A stretch of 64,000 nt of DNA from an uncultured Sulfuricurvum sp. (GTDB taxonomy: Bacteria; Campylobacterota; Campylobacteria; Campylobacterales; Sulfurimonadaceae): NCBI GenBank assembly GCA_903844635.1, contig CAIMUF010000032.1:1-64000 (forward strand), in the 5' to 3' direction. The position numbers and the translations under genes are program-made. Shown here piece after piece: positions 15,936 to 38,400 of the stretch. The notes beneath the pieces are model-generated. The model was not told where the DNA came from. It ran no database searches and was given only the letters and a program-made list of their open reading frames with translations. Every line of letters begins with the position of its first letter. Position 1 is the stretch's first letter.

Positions 15936-16163
15936 ATGATGAAAATCGTTTCTGCTATGCTTTTAGCTGCTATGTTTATCGGATGCAGCCAATCTGCAAA
16001 AACTGAAGCTGCACCTGCTGCAACTGAAGAAGTAGCACCTGCTGCTGAAGCTATGCCTGCTGCTGATGCTGCTGCTGTTGAAGCACCTGCTGCTGACGCT
16101 GCTGCTGTTGACGCTGCTGCGCCTGCTGCTGAAGCTGCACCTGCTGCTACACCTGCTAAATAA
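15936..16163 (+). CDS. Small alanine-rich lipoprotein
   Basis: A 75-residue protein. Residues 1-16 are a lipoprotein signal ending FIGC, so Cys17 should be lipidated. Everything after it is a low-complexity chain of Ala, Pro, Glu and Asp built on the unit APAADAAAVE. It should be an extended, negatively charged tether at the inner or outer membrane. No domain is present and I do not recognise a function. AAGGAG precedes the ATG, and the gene has its own promoter (15878-15908) and a hairpin terminator (16187-16206), so it is probably a strongly expressed single gene. Confidence 0.75.
   Translation: MMKIVSAMLLAAMFIGCSQSAKTEAAPAATEEVAPAAEAMPAADAAAVEAPAADAAAVDAAAPAAEAAPAATPAK
15990..16157 (+). 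repeat. GCTGCT-rich low-complexity tract inside the lipoprotein gene
   Basis: Repeated GCTGCTGCT and GCACCTGCTGCT units fill most of the gene. Changes by slippage would add or remove Ala/Pro codons in frame, so the length of the tether could vary between strains. Confidence 0.7.
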
Positions 16164-16283: not shown

Positions 16284-16730
16284 ATGAAATTTATTCTTCC
16301 CGTGGTATGTTCCATTCTATTAATTGGTTGCGGTAATTCAACCAAAGATTCTACACCTGATACACAACAAGTGTCTCAAACTGCCGAAGCCCCTGCTGTA
16401 ATATCTGAAAAAAACACTACTACACCTACTCCAGCAAGTGAAATAAAGCCAACACTAGAAACGCTTGCAGTTTCAACACCTTCAGAAGTAGATGGCGGAG
16501 CCCTCTTCTCTCAAAAATGTGCTGCGTGTCATGGAAATAAAGCTGAAAAGTCAGCACTAGGAAAGTCACAAATCATTGCACATTTTACAGAGCAACAAAT
16601 TAAAGATGCACTCCAAGGCTATCAAGCTGGTTCATATGGAAAAGAGATGAAAGGCTTAATGCAAGGTCAAGTAAAATTGCTTAGCCCTGAGCAGATCAAT
16701 GCTTTGGCAAAACATATTCCGACATTATAA
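16284..16730 (+). CDS. c-type cytochrome lipoprotein
   Basis: A 148-residue protein. The signal ends in a lipobox (ILLIGC, Cys16). A linker rich in Thr, Pro and Glu spans about 20-70. The C-terminal 75 residues form a class I cytochrome c domain with the haem site CAACHG (about 82-87) and MKGLMQGQ, which offers the distal methionine. It should be a membrane-anchored periplasmic electron carrier. The partner is not visible in the window. It has its own ribosome binding site (TAGGAG) and stands alone. Confidence 0.88.
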   Translation: MKFILPVVCSILLIGCGNSTKDSTPDTQQVSQTAEAPAVISEKNTTTPTPASEIKPTLETLAVSTPSEVDGGALFSQKCAACHGNKAEKSALGKSQIIAHFTEQQIKDALQGYQAGSYGKEMKGLMQGQVKLLSPEQINALAKHIPTL

Positions 16731-16783: not shown

Positions 16784-17461
16784 TCATCTTTCACTTTTAG
16801 GTAATGCAAACTTTTGCGTTACCAACTCTCCTTCATCATTAAAAAATAAATAATAAAGCTTATCTTTTTGTACATTCAAACCAGCCAAATAACGTAATGC
16901 TAAATTTGCTTGTAATGATGCAATATGCATCACAATCGGAGCAGTAATACCAGCAGGTGTCTTCTGTGTGATTTTAAACAGCTCTGTAAATGATGCTTCC
17001 TCAAAAAAACATACTTGTCCATTAAATGCTTCAACGGATCCATATACCCAGGGTACTCTTTTAGCTATCGCATAGGTATTAATCGCTCCTCGAGAAGGCA
17101 GATTATCCGTTCCATCAATAATCAAATCTACCTCAATATTTTTTTTTGTAAATTCATCAAAATTACAAATATGAGCAGTAGCTTTGACATACGGACAGCG
17201 TGATTCAATCAATTGAGCGCATACTTCTGCTTTAAATTTACCTTCATCACCACTCTTAAAAGCAATTTGACGATGAATATTGTGCAAACTTACCGTATCA
17301 AAATCAATCATATGGATTTCACCAATACCCGATGCCCCCAAGGCAAAGGCAAGTGATGAACCAAGCCCACCGCTTCCGATGATAGCAATTCGCTTGGATT
17401 GAAGGGAGAGTTGTGTTTCCTCACCCCATAGCTGTACTTGTCGATGAAAATAATGCATCAT
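16784..17461 (-). CDS. ThiF/MoeB/HesA-like E1 adenylyltransferase domain protein
   Basis: A protein of about 225 residues with the E1-type nucleotide-binding motif IIGSGGLGSSLAFALGASG, then DFDTVSLHNIHRQ, where Asp, Asn and Arg bind ATP, and IIDGTDNLPSRGAINTYA. Members adenylate the C-terminal Gly-Gly of sulfur-carrier proteins such as ThiS or MoaD. The two CxxC zinc pairs found in MoeB and ThiF are not here, and no obvious catalytic cysteine is visible, so the substrate is open. No ThiS/MoaD-like gene is next to it. I prefer an ATG at 17461 or 17458 to the GTG at 17470, since GGGAAG directly abuts the GTG. It is the last gene of the metY-metX operon. Confidence 0.75.
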   Translation of the reverse strand: MMHYFHRQVQLWGEETQLSLQSKRIAIIGSGGLGSSLAFALGASGIGEIHMIDFDTVSLHNIHRQIAFKSGDEGKFKAEVCAQLIESRCPYVKATAHICNFDEFTKKNIEVDLIIDGTDNLPSRGAINTYAIAKRVPWVYGSVEAFNGQVCFFEEASFTELFKITQKTPAGITAPIVMHIASLQANLALRYLAGLNVQKDKLYYLFFNDEGELVTQKFALPKSER

Positions 17462-17491: not shown

Positions 17492-19432
17492 CTAACCAAT
17501 AGGTAATTGAATAATAAATTTTGCCCCTAGACGTGTATTTTCTACTCCTATAGACCCGCCAAAGCTCTCTTCAATAATATAACGACACATGTGCAATCCC
17601 AATCCTGTCCCTTGATTGGCTGGCTTTGTGGTAAAATAAATAGTAAAAATTTTGTCCATAATCGATTCATCAATCCCTCCAGCATTGTCCTCAATCCAGA
17701 GTTCTAAAAATCCTTCTACATCAAAAATAGTAATATTGATTTCTCCGAATTTTATTTGCCGCTCCAATATCGCATCGTGAGCATTTTTAATAAGATTCAT
17801 AAATACTTGAATCATTTCATTTTTGGCTAATATGGCTTTAGTCGTCGTTTTTCTCTCAATGTGTCCTGTGATTTTTGCATCATTTAATAATACCGCACTA
17901 AGACGAAGTGCAATCTCTGCCACTTCAACTATATCCTCCGCCTCTTTGTGCTTGTCCATTTTATAATAATTGCGAAAATCATCAATAGTCTTTGACATAT
18001 ACTGTAAATGCTCTTGAAATTGCTCATGTGATGTTTCATATAAACTATCATCACATTCTCCCATATGACGCTTAAAATAAAGATTTTGATTAATAAGAGA
18101 TAATGTATTGAGTGGTTGTCGCCACTGGTGTGCAATTTGCTCGATCATCTCTCCAAGAGCAGCTAAACGTGATTGCTGAACAAAAAGTTCATCTTTTTTC
18201 CGAACTGCCGCCAATGATTCCGCTACTTTATCACTCAATGTTTCATTTAGGTTGCTAAGTTTATCAATATACTCAGACTGAAGCCAATAAACACGATCTG
18301 CTAATGCCCAGGAAAGAAAAATCATCTCGAACGCTGCACCAATTTGCTGAACATGATTAACACCATAAAAATAAGGAATTAACTCAAATTTATTAAACGT
18401 AAAAATCATGGTTCCAACTAGGAAAAAACTCCATCCTGAAAGGTAAAAACGAGCTACCCGATGAGCATGTTTTATCATCATAATACCGGCAGTTAATAAT
18501 AAAAAGGTCGAAAAAATAACCATACTGGCACTAACAAGTATAGTTTGTGAATAAGGCAAAATAGCGGAAATCATTGAAACGCCAAAACTTAAAAACATCA
18601 TTGATTTCAAAACAGTATCGAGCTTCGGAGAAGTCCCTTTTGTTTGTAAAAATCCTCGTCCAAAATACAATGCACTAAACGATGAAAAAGCAATCCAAAA
18701 GCCTGGACCATGATCTATCATCCATCTGCATTTTCCCCATATATAAGTACGTCCTGTACCGTCAAATGACATTTGCCAAAAAATAAAGGTGATTAAAAAA
18801 AGTAAATAACGAAGATAATTTGGGTCTCTGGTGTAAAAATAAATAACAATATTGTATAAAAAGATAACGATAAAAATTCCATAAAAAATTCCTATGGCCA
18901 GAGAGCTGTATTCAATTTCTTCAAATAGTCCTTCAGAAGAATGCAATGTTAGAGGAACCTGCATTGAGCCTTGTGTTTGAACCCGCATCATTAATGTTGC
19001 TTCAGGATACTCTTCCAGTCTGATTTGTGTAACATAATTATGCAAGGGAACTTTATTTTGGGAAGAGAGTAAAGAAGACCCCATTCTTTCAGTCAGAATA
19101 ATTTCACCCGTCTTTGAAAGTAGATAAAGATCAATTTTTTCTAACAATGGGTATTCTATTGATAGCCACCATTCTTTATGTGCAGCATGAGCATCACGCG
19201 TTATCTCTACCTTGAACCAATACGCAGAATGCGTAAAGCCAAAATTGATGCTTTCTTGTTGGTTTGGAACAAAGGATTGATGTAAAACATCCGAAAGATT
19301 CAAATCCCGACTGGCATCTTCAAAAGATGAGACATACGGGGCAAGATCATACGATGAATCCGAACATAGATGGAGAGTTTTTGCTTCTAAAGCCGTTGCT
19401 AATAGTAAGAAAAACCACCAAATATATTTCAT
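17492..19432 (-). CDS. 7TM-DISM sensor histidine kinase
   Basis: A 646-residue membrane sensor. It has a signal peptide (about 1-17), a periplasmic 7TMR-DISMED2-like beta domain (about 30-160, with FWFKVEI-like HSAYWFKVEI), seven helices (about 180-385), a coiled coil, and then a kinase core. The phospho-accepting His lies in GEMIEQIAHQWRQPLN. The ATPase boxes are NLIKNAHDAI, DNAGGID and GTGLGLHMC. The HQWRQPL type of H-box is common in the phylum. DISM domains are thought to bind carbohydrates or other small ligands. No response regulator gene is in the window, so it is an orphan kinase. It starts 1 bp after the nitrilase-like gene. Confidence 0.88.
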   Translation of the reverse strand: MKYIWWFFLLLATALEAKTLHLCSDSSYDLAPYVSSFEDASRDLNLSDVLHQSFVPNQQESINFGFTHSAYWFKVEITRDAHAAHKEWWLSIEYPLLEKIDLYLLSKTGEIILTERMGSSLLSSQNKVPLHNYVTQIRLEEYPEATLMMRVQTQGSMQVPLTLHSSEGLFEEIEYSSLAIGIFYGIFIVIFLYNIVIYFYTRDPNYLRYLLFLITFIFWQMSFDGTGRTYIWGKCRWMIDHGPGFWIAFSSFSALYFGRGFLQTKGTSPKLDTVLKSMMFLSFGVSMISAILPYSQTILVSASMVIFSTFLLLTAGIMMIKHAHRVARFYLSGWSFFLVGTMIFTFNKFELIPYFYGVNHVQQIGAAFEMIFLSWALADRVYWLQSEYIDKLSNLNETLSDKVAESLAAVRKKDELFVQQSRLAALGEMIEQIAHQWRQPLNTLSLINQNLYFKRHMGECDDSLYETSHEQFQEHLQYMSKTIDDFRNYYKMDKHKEAEDIVEVAEIALRLSAVLLNDAKITGHIERKTTTKAILAKNEMIQVFMNLIKNAHDAILERQIKFGEINITIFDVEGFLELWIEDNAGGIDESIMDKIFTIYFTTKPANQGTGLGLHMCRYIIEESFGGSIGVENTRLGAKFIIQLPIG

Positions 19433-19433
19433 C

Positions 19434-20225
19434 TTATTGTCGTTTTTTGAGTGCCTCTTTAAACCCCCACCCTTTTTTCGAATCGTTGAGAGCTTTACGG
19501 TCTAAATCAACAATAAGAAGCTCTTCGGTATTCCCCAAATCTGCTTCAATATCGCCATCAGGTGAAACAACCATGGAATCTCCATAGAACTTCCATGCAT
19601 GTTTTTCATCACAGTATTCACCAACACGATTTGCACGAAGAATGTAACAGTTATGAGTAAATGCTCTCATTTTAATTAATTCTCGCCAGCGATTATGCGA
19701 TTCAAATGTAGATGCACTTGGGACTAAGACAACATCAACATTTTTAGCGGCAATTGCACTCCATAGAGGATCAAAATGGAGTTCAAATCCACCCATAACT
19801 GCAAACTTAAAACCGTTTAGTCCAAATATCATAGGTGACTTTATCGCTTCAATAGGATTAGCAAAAAAGTTCTCTTCATTCCAATGAGGATAATTAATCA
19901 AAAACTGTTGAGGGTAATAACTCACGCTTCGCCCTGTGATTTTGGCAATCATTTTTGTACACTCATTTTTTTTGACAGTGATAATGGGTGCTATAAAAAC
20001 CATATCGTATTTGAGAGCAAGAGCTTTTAGTGTTTCGATTTGATGGATGCTTTGTTCACGAATCATTGAAATCGGTGTTTGAATCAGCTCTTTAAAAAAG
20101 GGGTTAAGAAGATATTCCCCCAACACCATTAGTTTAACACCCTTATTGTGTGCAGCACGCGTATAGTTGTCTAAGGTAGAACCACCCATACCGATTGAGG
20201 GAAGCTGTAAGATTGCACAACGCAT
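19434..20225 (-). CDS. Nitrilase-fold protein lacking the catalytic cysteine
   Basis: A 263-residue carbon-nitrogen hydrolase homologue. The fold is recognisable from the start (CAILQLPSIGMGGS), the Glu motif VLGEYLLNPFF (about 36-46) and the end (WKFYGDSMVVSPDGDIEADL). The catalytic Lys motif is replaced by YPQQFLINYPHW, and the nucleophile motif C-[YF]-[DE] reads FAVMGGFELHFD, with Gly where Cys should be. Hydrolysis by the normal mechanism is therefore not expected. From memory, similar proteins in related genomes share this change, which would make it an old pseudoenzyme. It sits between xseB (1 bp overlap) and the DISM kinase. Confidence 0.8.
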   Translation of the reverse strand: MRCAILQLPSIGMGGSTLDNYTRAAHNKGVKLMVLGEYLLNPFFKELIQTPISMIREQSIHQIETLKALALKYDMVFIAPIITVKKNECTKMIAKITGRSVSYYPQQFLINYPHWNEENFFANPIEAIKSPMIFGLNGFKFAVMGGFELHFDPLWSAIAAKNVDVVLVPSASTFESHNRWRELIKMRAFTHNCYILRANRVGEYCDEKHAWKFYGDSMVVSPDGDIEADLGNTEELLIVDLDRKALNDSKKGWGFKEALKKRQ

Positions 20226-20419
20226 TATTGATCCTGATTTTTGATAATTTGAATTTGTAATTGCGCTTGTTCTAACATTTTTTCAGCCATTTTAAGTTCA
20301 TTCATACCCTGTTCATAGGCCTTAACACTCTCATCCATAGCCAAAGTTGGGTCCATTAATTTTTCTAAAATAGCTTTTGCATTCGTTATTTTTGTCTCAA
20401 AACTTATTGCTTCATTCAT
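20225..20419 (-). CDS. xseB: Exodeoxyribonuclease VII small subunit
   Basis: A 64-residue helical protein with the family pattern FETKITNAKAILEKLMDPTL followed by DESVKAYEQGMNELKMAEKM. XseB binds XseA to form the nuclease that degrades single-stranded DNA. XseA is not in the window. Start and stop overlap metX (4 bp) and the nitrilase-like gene (1 bp), so it is translationally coupled in the metY-metX operon. Confidence 0.88.
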   Translation of the reverse strand: MNEAISFETKITNAKAILEKLMDPTLAMDESVKAYEQGMNELKMAEKMLEQAQLQIQIIKNQDQ

Positions 20420-21513
20420 AATGCATCCTTTACATATTTCTCAATTTTATCAATTTCTACCAAAAAAGCGTCATGTCCATAATCGCTTTTAATTTCAACA
20501 TAATCAACATTTTCTTTTCCAATAGTATGCATTGTTGATGCTATCATTTCCATTTCAGACGGTAAAAACAGAATGTCTTTTTCAAATCCAACCAAGTGAA
20601 GGTCCGCACTAATACGACCAAGCGCTTCTTCCAAAGAGTCAAATCCTCGTGAAAGATCATAGATATTAATGGCTTTGGTAATGTACAAATAACTCAGAGG
20701 ATCAAACCATTTTGTAAAGTTGTATCCATTGTACTCCAAATACGATTCAACTTGGAACTTTCCAAATAACTCGTACAATCCATCATTACGTTTGTACTCA
20801 CGACCAAACTTTCGTTCCATGGATTGGGGTGACAAAAAACTAATATGTCCTGCCATCCGTCCTATCGCCATACCGCTAAGACCATTTTCATGAATCAATT
20901 CAGGGTCATAATATCCATTTTTAAATTCAGGGTCTTTAAGAATCGCCTCTTGGGCTACTTTATTGAATGCAATTGCCCAGGCTTGGGTAGCGTGAGTCGA
21001 TGCCATCGCAATAATTTTTTTGGCAAAATTGGGAAAAAATACCCCGAATGCCAATGCTTGCATCCCACCCATCGAACCGCCGATGACCGCATGCACTTCA
21101 TGGATACCCAAACGATCAAATAAAATGCGTTGCGCTCTCACCATATCCAATATCGTTACAACGGGGAATTTATAACGATAAGGCTCGTTATAAGGATAGC
21201 GGGGTGACATAGGACCGGTAGAACCAAAACAACTTCCGATGACATTCGCGCAGATCACGAAAAAATGATCGGTATCAACCGCTTTTCCCTGACCTATAAG
21301 ACCATCCCACCATCCGGCTTTGTTATCCCCATCATACGTTCCAGCCGCATGATGAGAACCCGTAAGAGCATGACAAACCACTATCACATTATCACGTGCT
21401 TCATTAAGAGTACCGTACGTCTCATAGACGATATCGTATGGCTCTAAAATTCGCCCACTCTCTAAATAAAGAGGGTTTGTGAAATGCTCACTGTGAATCT
21501 GTAGGTTTAACAT
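20416..21513 (-). CDS. metX: Homoserine O-acetyltransferase
   Basis: Acetylates homoserine with acetyl-CoA, the first step committed to methionine. It is an alpha/beta hydrolase of 365 residues. The nucleophile elbow is VIGGSMGGMQALAF (Ser at about 150), and the late SDYGHDAFLVE provides the catalytic His. NVIVVCHALTGSHHAAG is the usual N-terminal motif. Specificity for acetyl rather than succinyl donors is assumed from the family and from the next gene, an O-acetylhomoserine sulfhydrylase, 8 bp upstream. Confidence 0.93.
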   Translation of the reverse strand: MLNLQIHSEHFTNPLYLESGRILEPYDIVYETYGTLNEARDNVIVVCHALTGSHHAAGTYDGDNKAGWWDGLIGQGKAVDTDHFFVICANVIGSCFGSTGPMSPRYPYNEPYRYKFPVVTILDMVRAQRILFDRLGIHEVHAVIGGSMGGMQALAFGVFFPNFAKKIIAMASTHATQAWAIAFNKVAQEAILKDPEFKNGYYDPELIHENGLSGMAIGRMAGHISFLSPQSMERKFGREYKRNDGLYELFGKFQVESYLEYNGYNFTKWFDPLSYLYITKAINIYDLSRGFDSLEEALGRISADLHLVGFEKDILFLPSEMEMIASTMHTIGKENVDYVEIKSDYGHDAFLVEIDKIEKYVKDAL

Positions 21514-37641: not shown

Positions 37642-38400
37642 TTAGGTATTTTTTGCAATATAACGCTCTAATTTTTGAAGTTTATGATTCAATGAAACAA
37701 TTTTTGACTCTTCATCCAAAAGAGAGAGTTGATGCTCAACAGAACCAATAGGAGTAATCACCCTGCTTCCTCCCCAAAATCCAAGTCCATCTTCAAATCC
37801 GACACGGTTGACAAAAACAACATATGCTTTCGTTAGCAGTGCAAGAGATTTTAACAAGGCATCCCATTGAGATTCTATCAGCAATCCCTCATCACTAAAG
37901 TCACGTGCAGGGGAAGCAGCCAATACATAAATGACATCAACATCCAATGTTGCAAGAGTAGCAAATGTCTGTGCTCGCCAAACATCTTCACACACAACCA
38001 TAGCCGCAGTTCCATAGACTGTTTGAAAGTTCTTTATTTCATTACCTGCAGCGAAGTAACGTCCCTCTTCAAACATTCCATACGTCGGAAGATGATTTTT
38101 ATGATGAATATGAAGCAACTCACCTTTAGAAAAATAAAGGGCGCTGTTATACACCTTTCCATCATCCCAAATCGCTGCACCTATTGCAATATCACACACG
38201 TTACTAGCCTTTGCCAGCGGCACTAACTCATCAAGATTCCAGGCATCTTCAAAAAGTTTATCTTGAAGCATATAGCCACTCAATGCCAATTCAGGAAAAA
38301 CAACTACATCCGCATCTGAGTTAATATCGATGAGCGCTAAAACCCTCTCTAAATTAGAGCGATTGAGCTTGGGTGCAAACTGGAGTAAAGCTGCTTTCAT
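37642..38400 (-). CDS. Carbon-nitrogen hydrolase (nitrilase family), active type
   Basis: A 252-residue amidohydrolase with the full Glu-Lys-Cys triad: VVFPELALSGYML (Glu at about 37), HHKNHLPTYGMFEEGRYF (Lys at about 105) and MVVCEDVWR (Cys at about 139). The CEDVW form and the FEEGRYF loop resemble the glutaminase domain of NAD synthetases, so it may hydrolyse an amide such as glutamine; the true substrate is unknown. ATG 38400 overlaps the fabD TGA (ATGA) and is preferred to the ATG at 38415. It contrasts with the second nitrilase-fold protein at 19434-20225, which lacks the triad. Confidence 0.83.
   Translation of the reverse strand: MKAALLQFAPKLNRSNLERVLALIDINSDADVVVFPELALSGYMLQDKLFEDAWNLDELVPLAKASNVCDIAIGAAIWDDGKVYNSALYFSKGELLHIHHKNHLPTYGMFEEGRYFAAGNEIKNFQTVYGTAAMVVCEDVWRAQTFATLATLDVDVIYVLAASPARDFSDEGLLIESQWDALLKSLALLTKAYVVFVNRVGFEDGLGFWGGSRVITPIGSVEHQLSLLDEESKIVSLNHKLQKLERYIAKNT

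Follow-up and report, generated by a model that had tools for sequence, protein, structure and literature searches.

The nearest solved structures to the protein described here are those of CJ1056C of Campylobacter jejuni (PDB 9wpn and 9wpo, released 2025-10-08), deposited under the title 'nitrilase superfamily protein CJ1056C from Campylobacter jejuni'. Since CJ1056C already has crystal structures, neither the fold nor the family is new. A passage in PMC5841378, citing Reid et al. 2008, names cj1056c as a putative carbon-nitrogen hydrolase gene and states that low pH modulates its expression in vitro. Our search of the literature on CJ1056C and on inactive nitrilase relatives found no description of the family's missing cysteine. 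A second point of reference is the N-carbamoylputrescine amidohydrolase AguB, represented by the M. truncatula structures 5h8i-5h8l and, in the genome under study, by the paralogue L001. AguB shares with our protein the fold, two Glu residues and the FYG motif, but it has Cys, Lys and Asn where our protein has Gly, no conserved Lys, and Lys in place of the Asn. By the curated model TIGR03381 the protein is not an N-carbamoylputrescine amidase: it scores 53.4 against a cut-off of 410.25.

How does the present locus compare? The window, by which we mean the whole stretch of 64,000 nucleotides that was analysed, comes from a Sulfuricurvum species, judging by its 97-99% identity with named Sulfuricurvum contigs. 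It contains a gene for a 263-residue protein that we call nit-like (Table 1). The protein matches PF00795 with an E-value of 3.1e-20, scoring 73 bits where the cut-off is 23.2, and its AlphaFold (AF2) model has a pLDDT of 95.9. In structure comparison the model scores a Z of about 30 against catalytic nitrilases and 40.2 against CJ1056C, with an rmsd of 1.2 over 257 residues. By both its descent and its fold, nit-like is thus a member of the CN-hydrolase (nitrilase) superfamily. We identify CJ1056C as its orthologue from the best full-length match (43-44% identity) and from the shared signature of Gly, Lys91 and QQ: the phmmer alignment pairs the Cys place with GFE in CJ1056C, position 91 with YKK and positions 106-107 with QQ, although CJ1056C is diverged and comes from another family of the order. 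Cj0947c and HP0757, which we had first taken for the orthologues, were dropped in favour of CJ1056C on the strength of the structure title.

An earlier note on this DNA had described a nitrilase fold in which the catalytic Cys is Gly, the Lys motif is missing and the Glu is kept, and the protein bears this description out. Gly146 lies in VMGGFELHFD and aligns with the paralogue Cys, where nearly all rows of the complete paralogues read C-[YFW]-[DE]; residues 104-110 are YPQQFLI; and Glu37 and the second Glu, E117, are both present. The normal homologue that the earlier note had offered as a contrast, at 37642-38400 of the window, does have Glu, Lys, Glu and Cys. The source genome encodes five PF00795 proteins, the fifth of which (L005, 1399-2283) contains Cys in ICFELRF and is neighboured by what we take to be a protein-L-isoaspartate methyltransferase gene; relatives of L005 also occur in genomes without nit-like.

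Table 1. Coordinates in the window of nit-like, its key codons and its neighbouring genes.
Feature	Positions	Strand	Basis
Cys-less CN-hydrolase homologue (nit-like), CJ1056C orthologue	19434..20225	-	ORF, PF00795, AF2 model
Glu37 codon, canonical first Glu, kept	20115..20117	-	computed from ORF start at 20225
Lys91 codon, family-specific	19953..19955	-	computed from ORF start
Codons 106-108, where the canonical Lys may belong; no Lys in nit-like	19902..19910	-	
H114-W115-N116-E117 family signature, including second Glu	19875..19886	-	98-row counts
Gly146 codon, catalytic Cys position	19788..19790	-	208-row alignment
xseB (exonuclease VII small subunit), upstream of nit-like and coupled to it	20225..20419	-	
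metX-like gene, upstream of xseB in many members	20416..21513	-	context in the earlier note
7TMR-DISM sensor histidine kinase, neighbour of nit-like in few genomes	17492..19432	-	
ThiF/MoeB-like gene, often downstream of nit-like in other genomes	16784..17458	-	

Is the loss of the cysteine local, or is it a property of the family? A sample of 298 genomes was requested by phylum, and all of the listed genomes belong to the order of the window; nit-like was found in 268 of them at E <= 1e-10. The alignments comprise 208 family rows, made up of 128 of the 268 positive genomes (a set of 98 and a further 30) and 80 loci from named records, the best 80 of 474 relatives, whose species may overlap with those of the 128. 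The 128 genomes span 11 coded families, and 29 of the 30 further genomes come from one family. In these homologues from the Campylobacterales, a collection that the earlier note had proposed for the Campylobacterota, position 146 is Gly in 205 of 208 rows, Ala in two and a gap in one, and Cys in none. By set, this is Gly in 96 and Ala in two of 98 rows, Gly in 80 of 80, and Gly in 29 of 30 with one gap; the gap probably comes from the partial row L344, judging from its match to 62-261. Three of 98 rows do have a Cys somewhere within 143-151, but none has it at the catalytic position. A homologue at the same locus with an intact Glu-Lys-Cys triad, which the earlier note had said would overturn its reading, was sought in the 208 rows and none was found. 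On this evidence the Cys-to-Gly change is fixed and of long standing, and we reject a local loss. As to the other residues, Glu37 is present in 97 of 98 rows (the exception is L101, whose frame is longer and whose alignment may be at fault), H114 in 97, W115 and E117 in all 98, N116 in 80 and H150 in 95, and invariant or nearly so are E37, K91, W115, E117, E148, R179, W180, R197 and FYG. The frames are open in nearly all loci. Second copies were left out of the 98-row set (L003, L104 and L105, of L006, L103 and L101, respectively). Two genomes of genus g20 have split family matches (L101/L105 and L103/L104), one with a 394-aa frame that perhaps carries an insertion. A search of plasmids for family members returned distant matches alone, the best at 26% identity, and a search of phages returned none.

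The family also appears to have a single source. Of the 51 rows in the tree, the 16 from the family group together with support of 100/100 and the other 35 all have Cys; a single origin of the Cys-to-Gly change is the simplest reading. Rows left out of the alignment or tree are L294 and L296 (for length), L309-L311, L232, L279, L292, L299, L304 and six family copies. The dN/dS of nit-like against its five nearest relatives is 0.017-0.024, with dS below 1 for three of them, while dS is saturated for most other relatives among the 25 compared. These values point to strong purifying selection.

The second change concerns the lysine. All 38 aligned paralogues (identical copies L279 and L292 left out) have the catalytic Cys, and all have a Lys in the part of the hairpin that aligns with 99-114. 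By alignment the family has no conserved Lys at this canonical YRKxHL place, and the aligned column varies with the aligner: phmmer against MtCPA gives 106, MAFFT gives 108, and hhalign, read by eye, gives 107 against AguB, 108 against the L005 type and 106 against the L293 type. Since the three programs thus give 106, 107 or 108, our first mapping to Gln106 was dropped as a firm assignment. Lys is found at 106 in none of 98 family rows, at 107 in one and at 108 in six. At position 108, 69 of the 98 rows have Ile, Phe or Leu and 14 have Arg; of the 30 further genomes (29 of one coded family), 21 have Arg there and five have Lys. The position is not uniformly hydrophobic, and this further set counts against a simple claim that no basic residue is present. 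Lys91, on the other hand, is found in 207 of 208 family rows with one gap (98/98, 80/80 and 29/30), where the 38 paralogues have Asn in 33, Asp in four and a gap in one. The AlphaFold model has strands at 88-96 and then 101-105, in sequence as in a hairpin, and Lys91 should accordingly lie on the strand beside that of the old lysine and may reach into the pocket.

What, then, does the protein do? We think it probable that nit-like is a non-hydrolytic, ligand-binding or sensing homologue of the CN-hydrolases. The known thioester route of these enzymes requires a thiol, and because nit-like has lost its thiol nucleophile, amide hydrolysis by that route is closed to it. We propose an ancient, single-copy Campylobacterales protein of the CN-hydrolase fold whose remodelled pocket would bind a small molecule, and which would serve as a binding protein, a sensor or a carrier. 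The binding or regulatory role suggested in the earlier note is thus still the best reading, with the nucleophile absent, the change fixed and selection strong. The retention of both Glu, a Lys and invariant polar residues under such selection fits a pocket that still binds something, and the family-specific residues are Lys91, His114, Trp115, His150 and Arg179. Structures of cysteine mutants of nitrilases with ligand, as titled (4izs, C145A with butyramide; 6ypa, C146A with glutaramide; 5h8l, C158S with putrescine), show that a pocket with Ala or Ser for Cys can hold a ligand. Against this reading, the survival of both Glu and a lysine leaves room for a different chemistry, and several genomes do without the gene.

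Such a chemistry is possible though rather unlikely. Nit-like would then be a working enzyme in which Lys91 takes the role of the lysine and Glu37, Glu117 and His150 serve as general acid or base or bind a metal, in a reaction that needs no thiol, for example that of a lyase or isomerase. The near-invariance of Lys91 against Asn or Asp in the paralogues, and of both Glu, His114 and His150, argues for it, and the secondary structure of the model suggests one hairpin that would hold both lysine places. A little more doubtful is a fuller version, in which the site was rebuilt at or near the base of the Campylobacterales by moving the lysine to the Asn place on the partner strand, removing the thiol and adding His114 and His150, and was then fixed for a new, cysteine-free chemistry.

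The neighbourhood offers a further candidate. In the window the genes run metX-like, xseB, nit-like, histidine kinase and ThiF-like, where the metX-like gene is putative and named from the context given in the earlier note. The stop codon of xseB shares one base with the start codon of nit-like (TAATG), and a single base separates the nit-like stop from the ATG of the kinase (TAAGATG). Two small secreted-looking ORFs lie at 15936-16163 and 16284-16730, one rich in Ala and Pro, the other bearing a CxxCH motif of the kind found in c-type cytochromes. The constant neighbour of nit-like is xseB, which lies directly upstream of it, often overlapping it, in 93 of 98, 48 of 51 and 80 of 80 loci in three sets that overlap. 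Of the tight coupling to both neighbours reported in the earlier note, the xseB part stands across the order, while the kinase part holds in the window and in few other loci. Might nit-like bind XseB or the XseA-XseB complex? We regard this as improbable, for all the constancy of the pair: sharing an operon is in itself no proof of contact, three genomes carry nit-like with xseB elsewhere, and among 20 listed genomes that lack nit-like, 18 keep xseB and 19 keep xseA.

Nit-like is absent from 30 of the 298 genomes at E <= 1e-10, and since several genomes lack the gene, its role appears dispensable in some lineages. The 20 listed comprise 11 of coded family f7, which we guess to be Arcobacteraceae, five of genus g17 and four others. 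In the 14 whose xseB surroundings were inspected, no family member follows xseB; a ThiF-like gene takes that place in G044, and in three of four g17 loci the place is taken by what we presume to be a sigma-70-like gene, which follows nit-like in related genomes. These loci look like gene loss from a standing operon. G062 and G082 (the latter in two contigs) show neither xseB nor nit-like at the thresholds used.

That nit-like partners or modulates the 7TMR-DISM histidine kinase next to it, the link drawn in the earlier note, is very hard to credit: the idea has the one-base spacing in the window in its favour, but a homologous kinase lies directly downstream of nit-like in 16 of 130 loci only. 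Loci with a kinase between nit-like and the ThiF-like gene include some Sulfuricurvum, and at least one genome of the same genus has the ThiF-like gene directly after nit-like with no kinase between; overall the ThiF-like gene lies downstream in at least 42 of 98 loci, where some flanks are short. Likewise, the methionine link was one of operon position, and we reject a methionine function: the metX-like gene lies within 700 bases upstream in at least 69 of 98 loci, some with short flanks, and the gene persists in the rest with no metX beside it. Finally, a decaying or recently inactivated amidase gene, to which the loss of Cys and Lys might seem to point, is ruled out for practical purposes by fixation over 11 coded families, open frames and a dN/dS near 0.02.

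The nit-like family is real, old, well kept and pseudoenzyme-like. To our knowledge, little has been written on nitrilase-fold pseudoenzymes that are fixed throughout an order. The present one is preserved across the Campylobacterales, to which Campylobacter and Helicobacter belong, and has solved structures at hand. The binding and relocation readings predict a ligand in the pocket and a Lys91 that points into it. The exchange of lysines is the most interesting new point of the family, and one that the deposited CJ1056C structure could show. Another relative for comparison is the small amidase-like paralogue of the L005 type, which has CFELRF for the GFELHF of nit-like and shares with it a Gln two residues before the hairpin Lys place, but which has a complete Glu-Lys-Cys triad and falls in a separate clade. 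A further parallel is that of the WNK kinases, whose catalytic lysine stands on another strand. Their fold is unrelated, and in nit-like the nucleophile is lost as well and relocation is a candidate; the likeness would be that a catalytic lysine has changed strands, and Lys91 could be such a relocated lysine.
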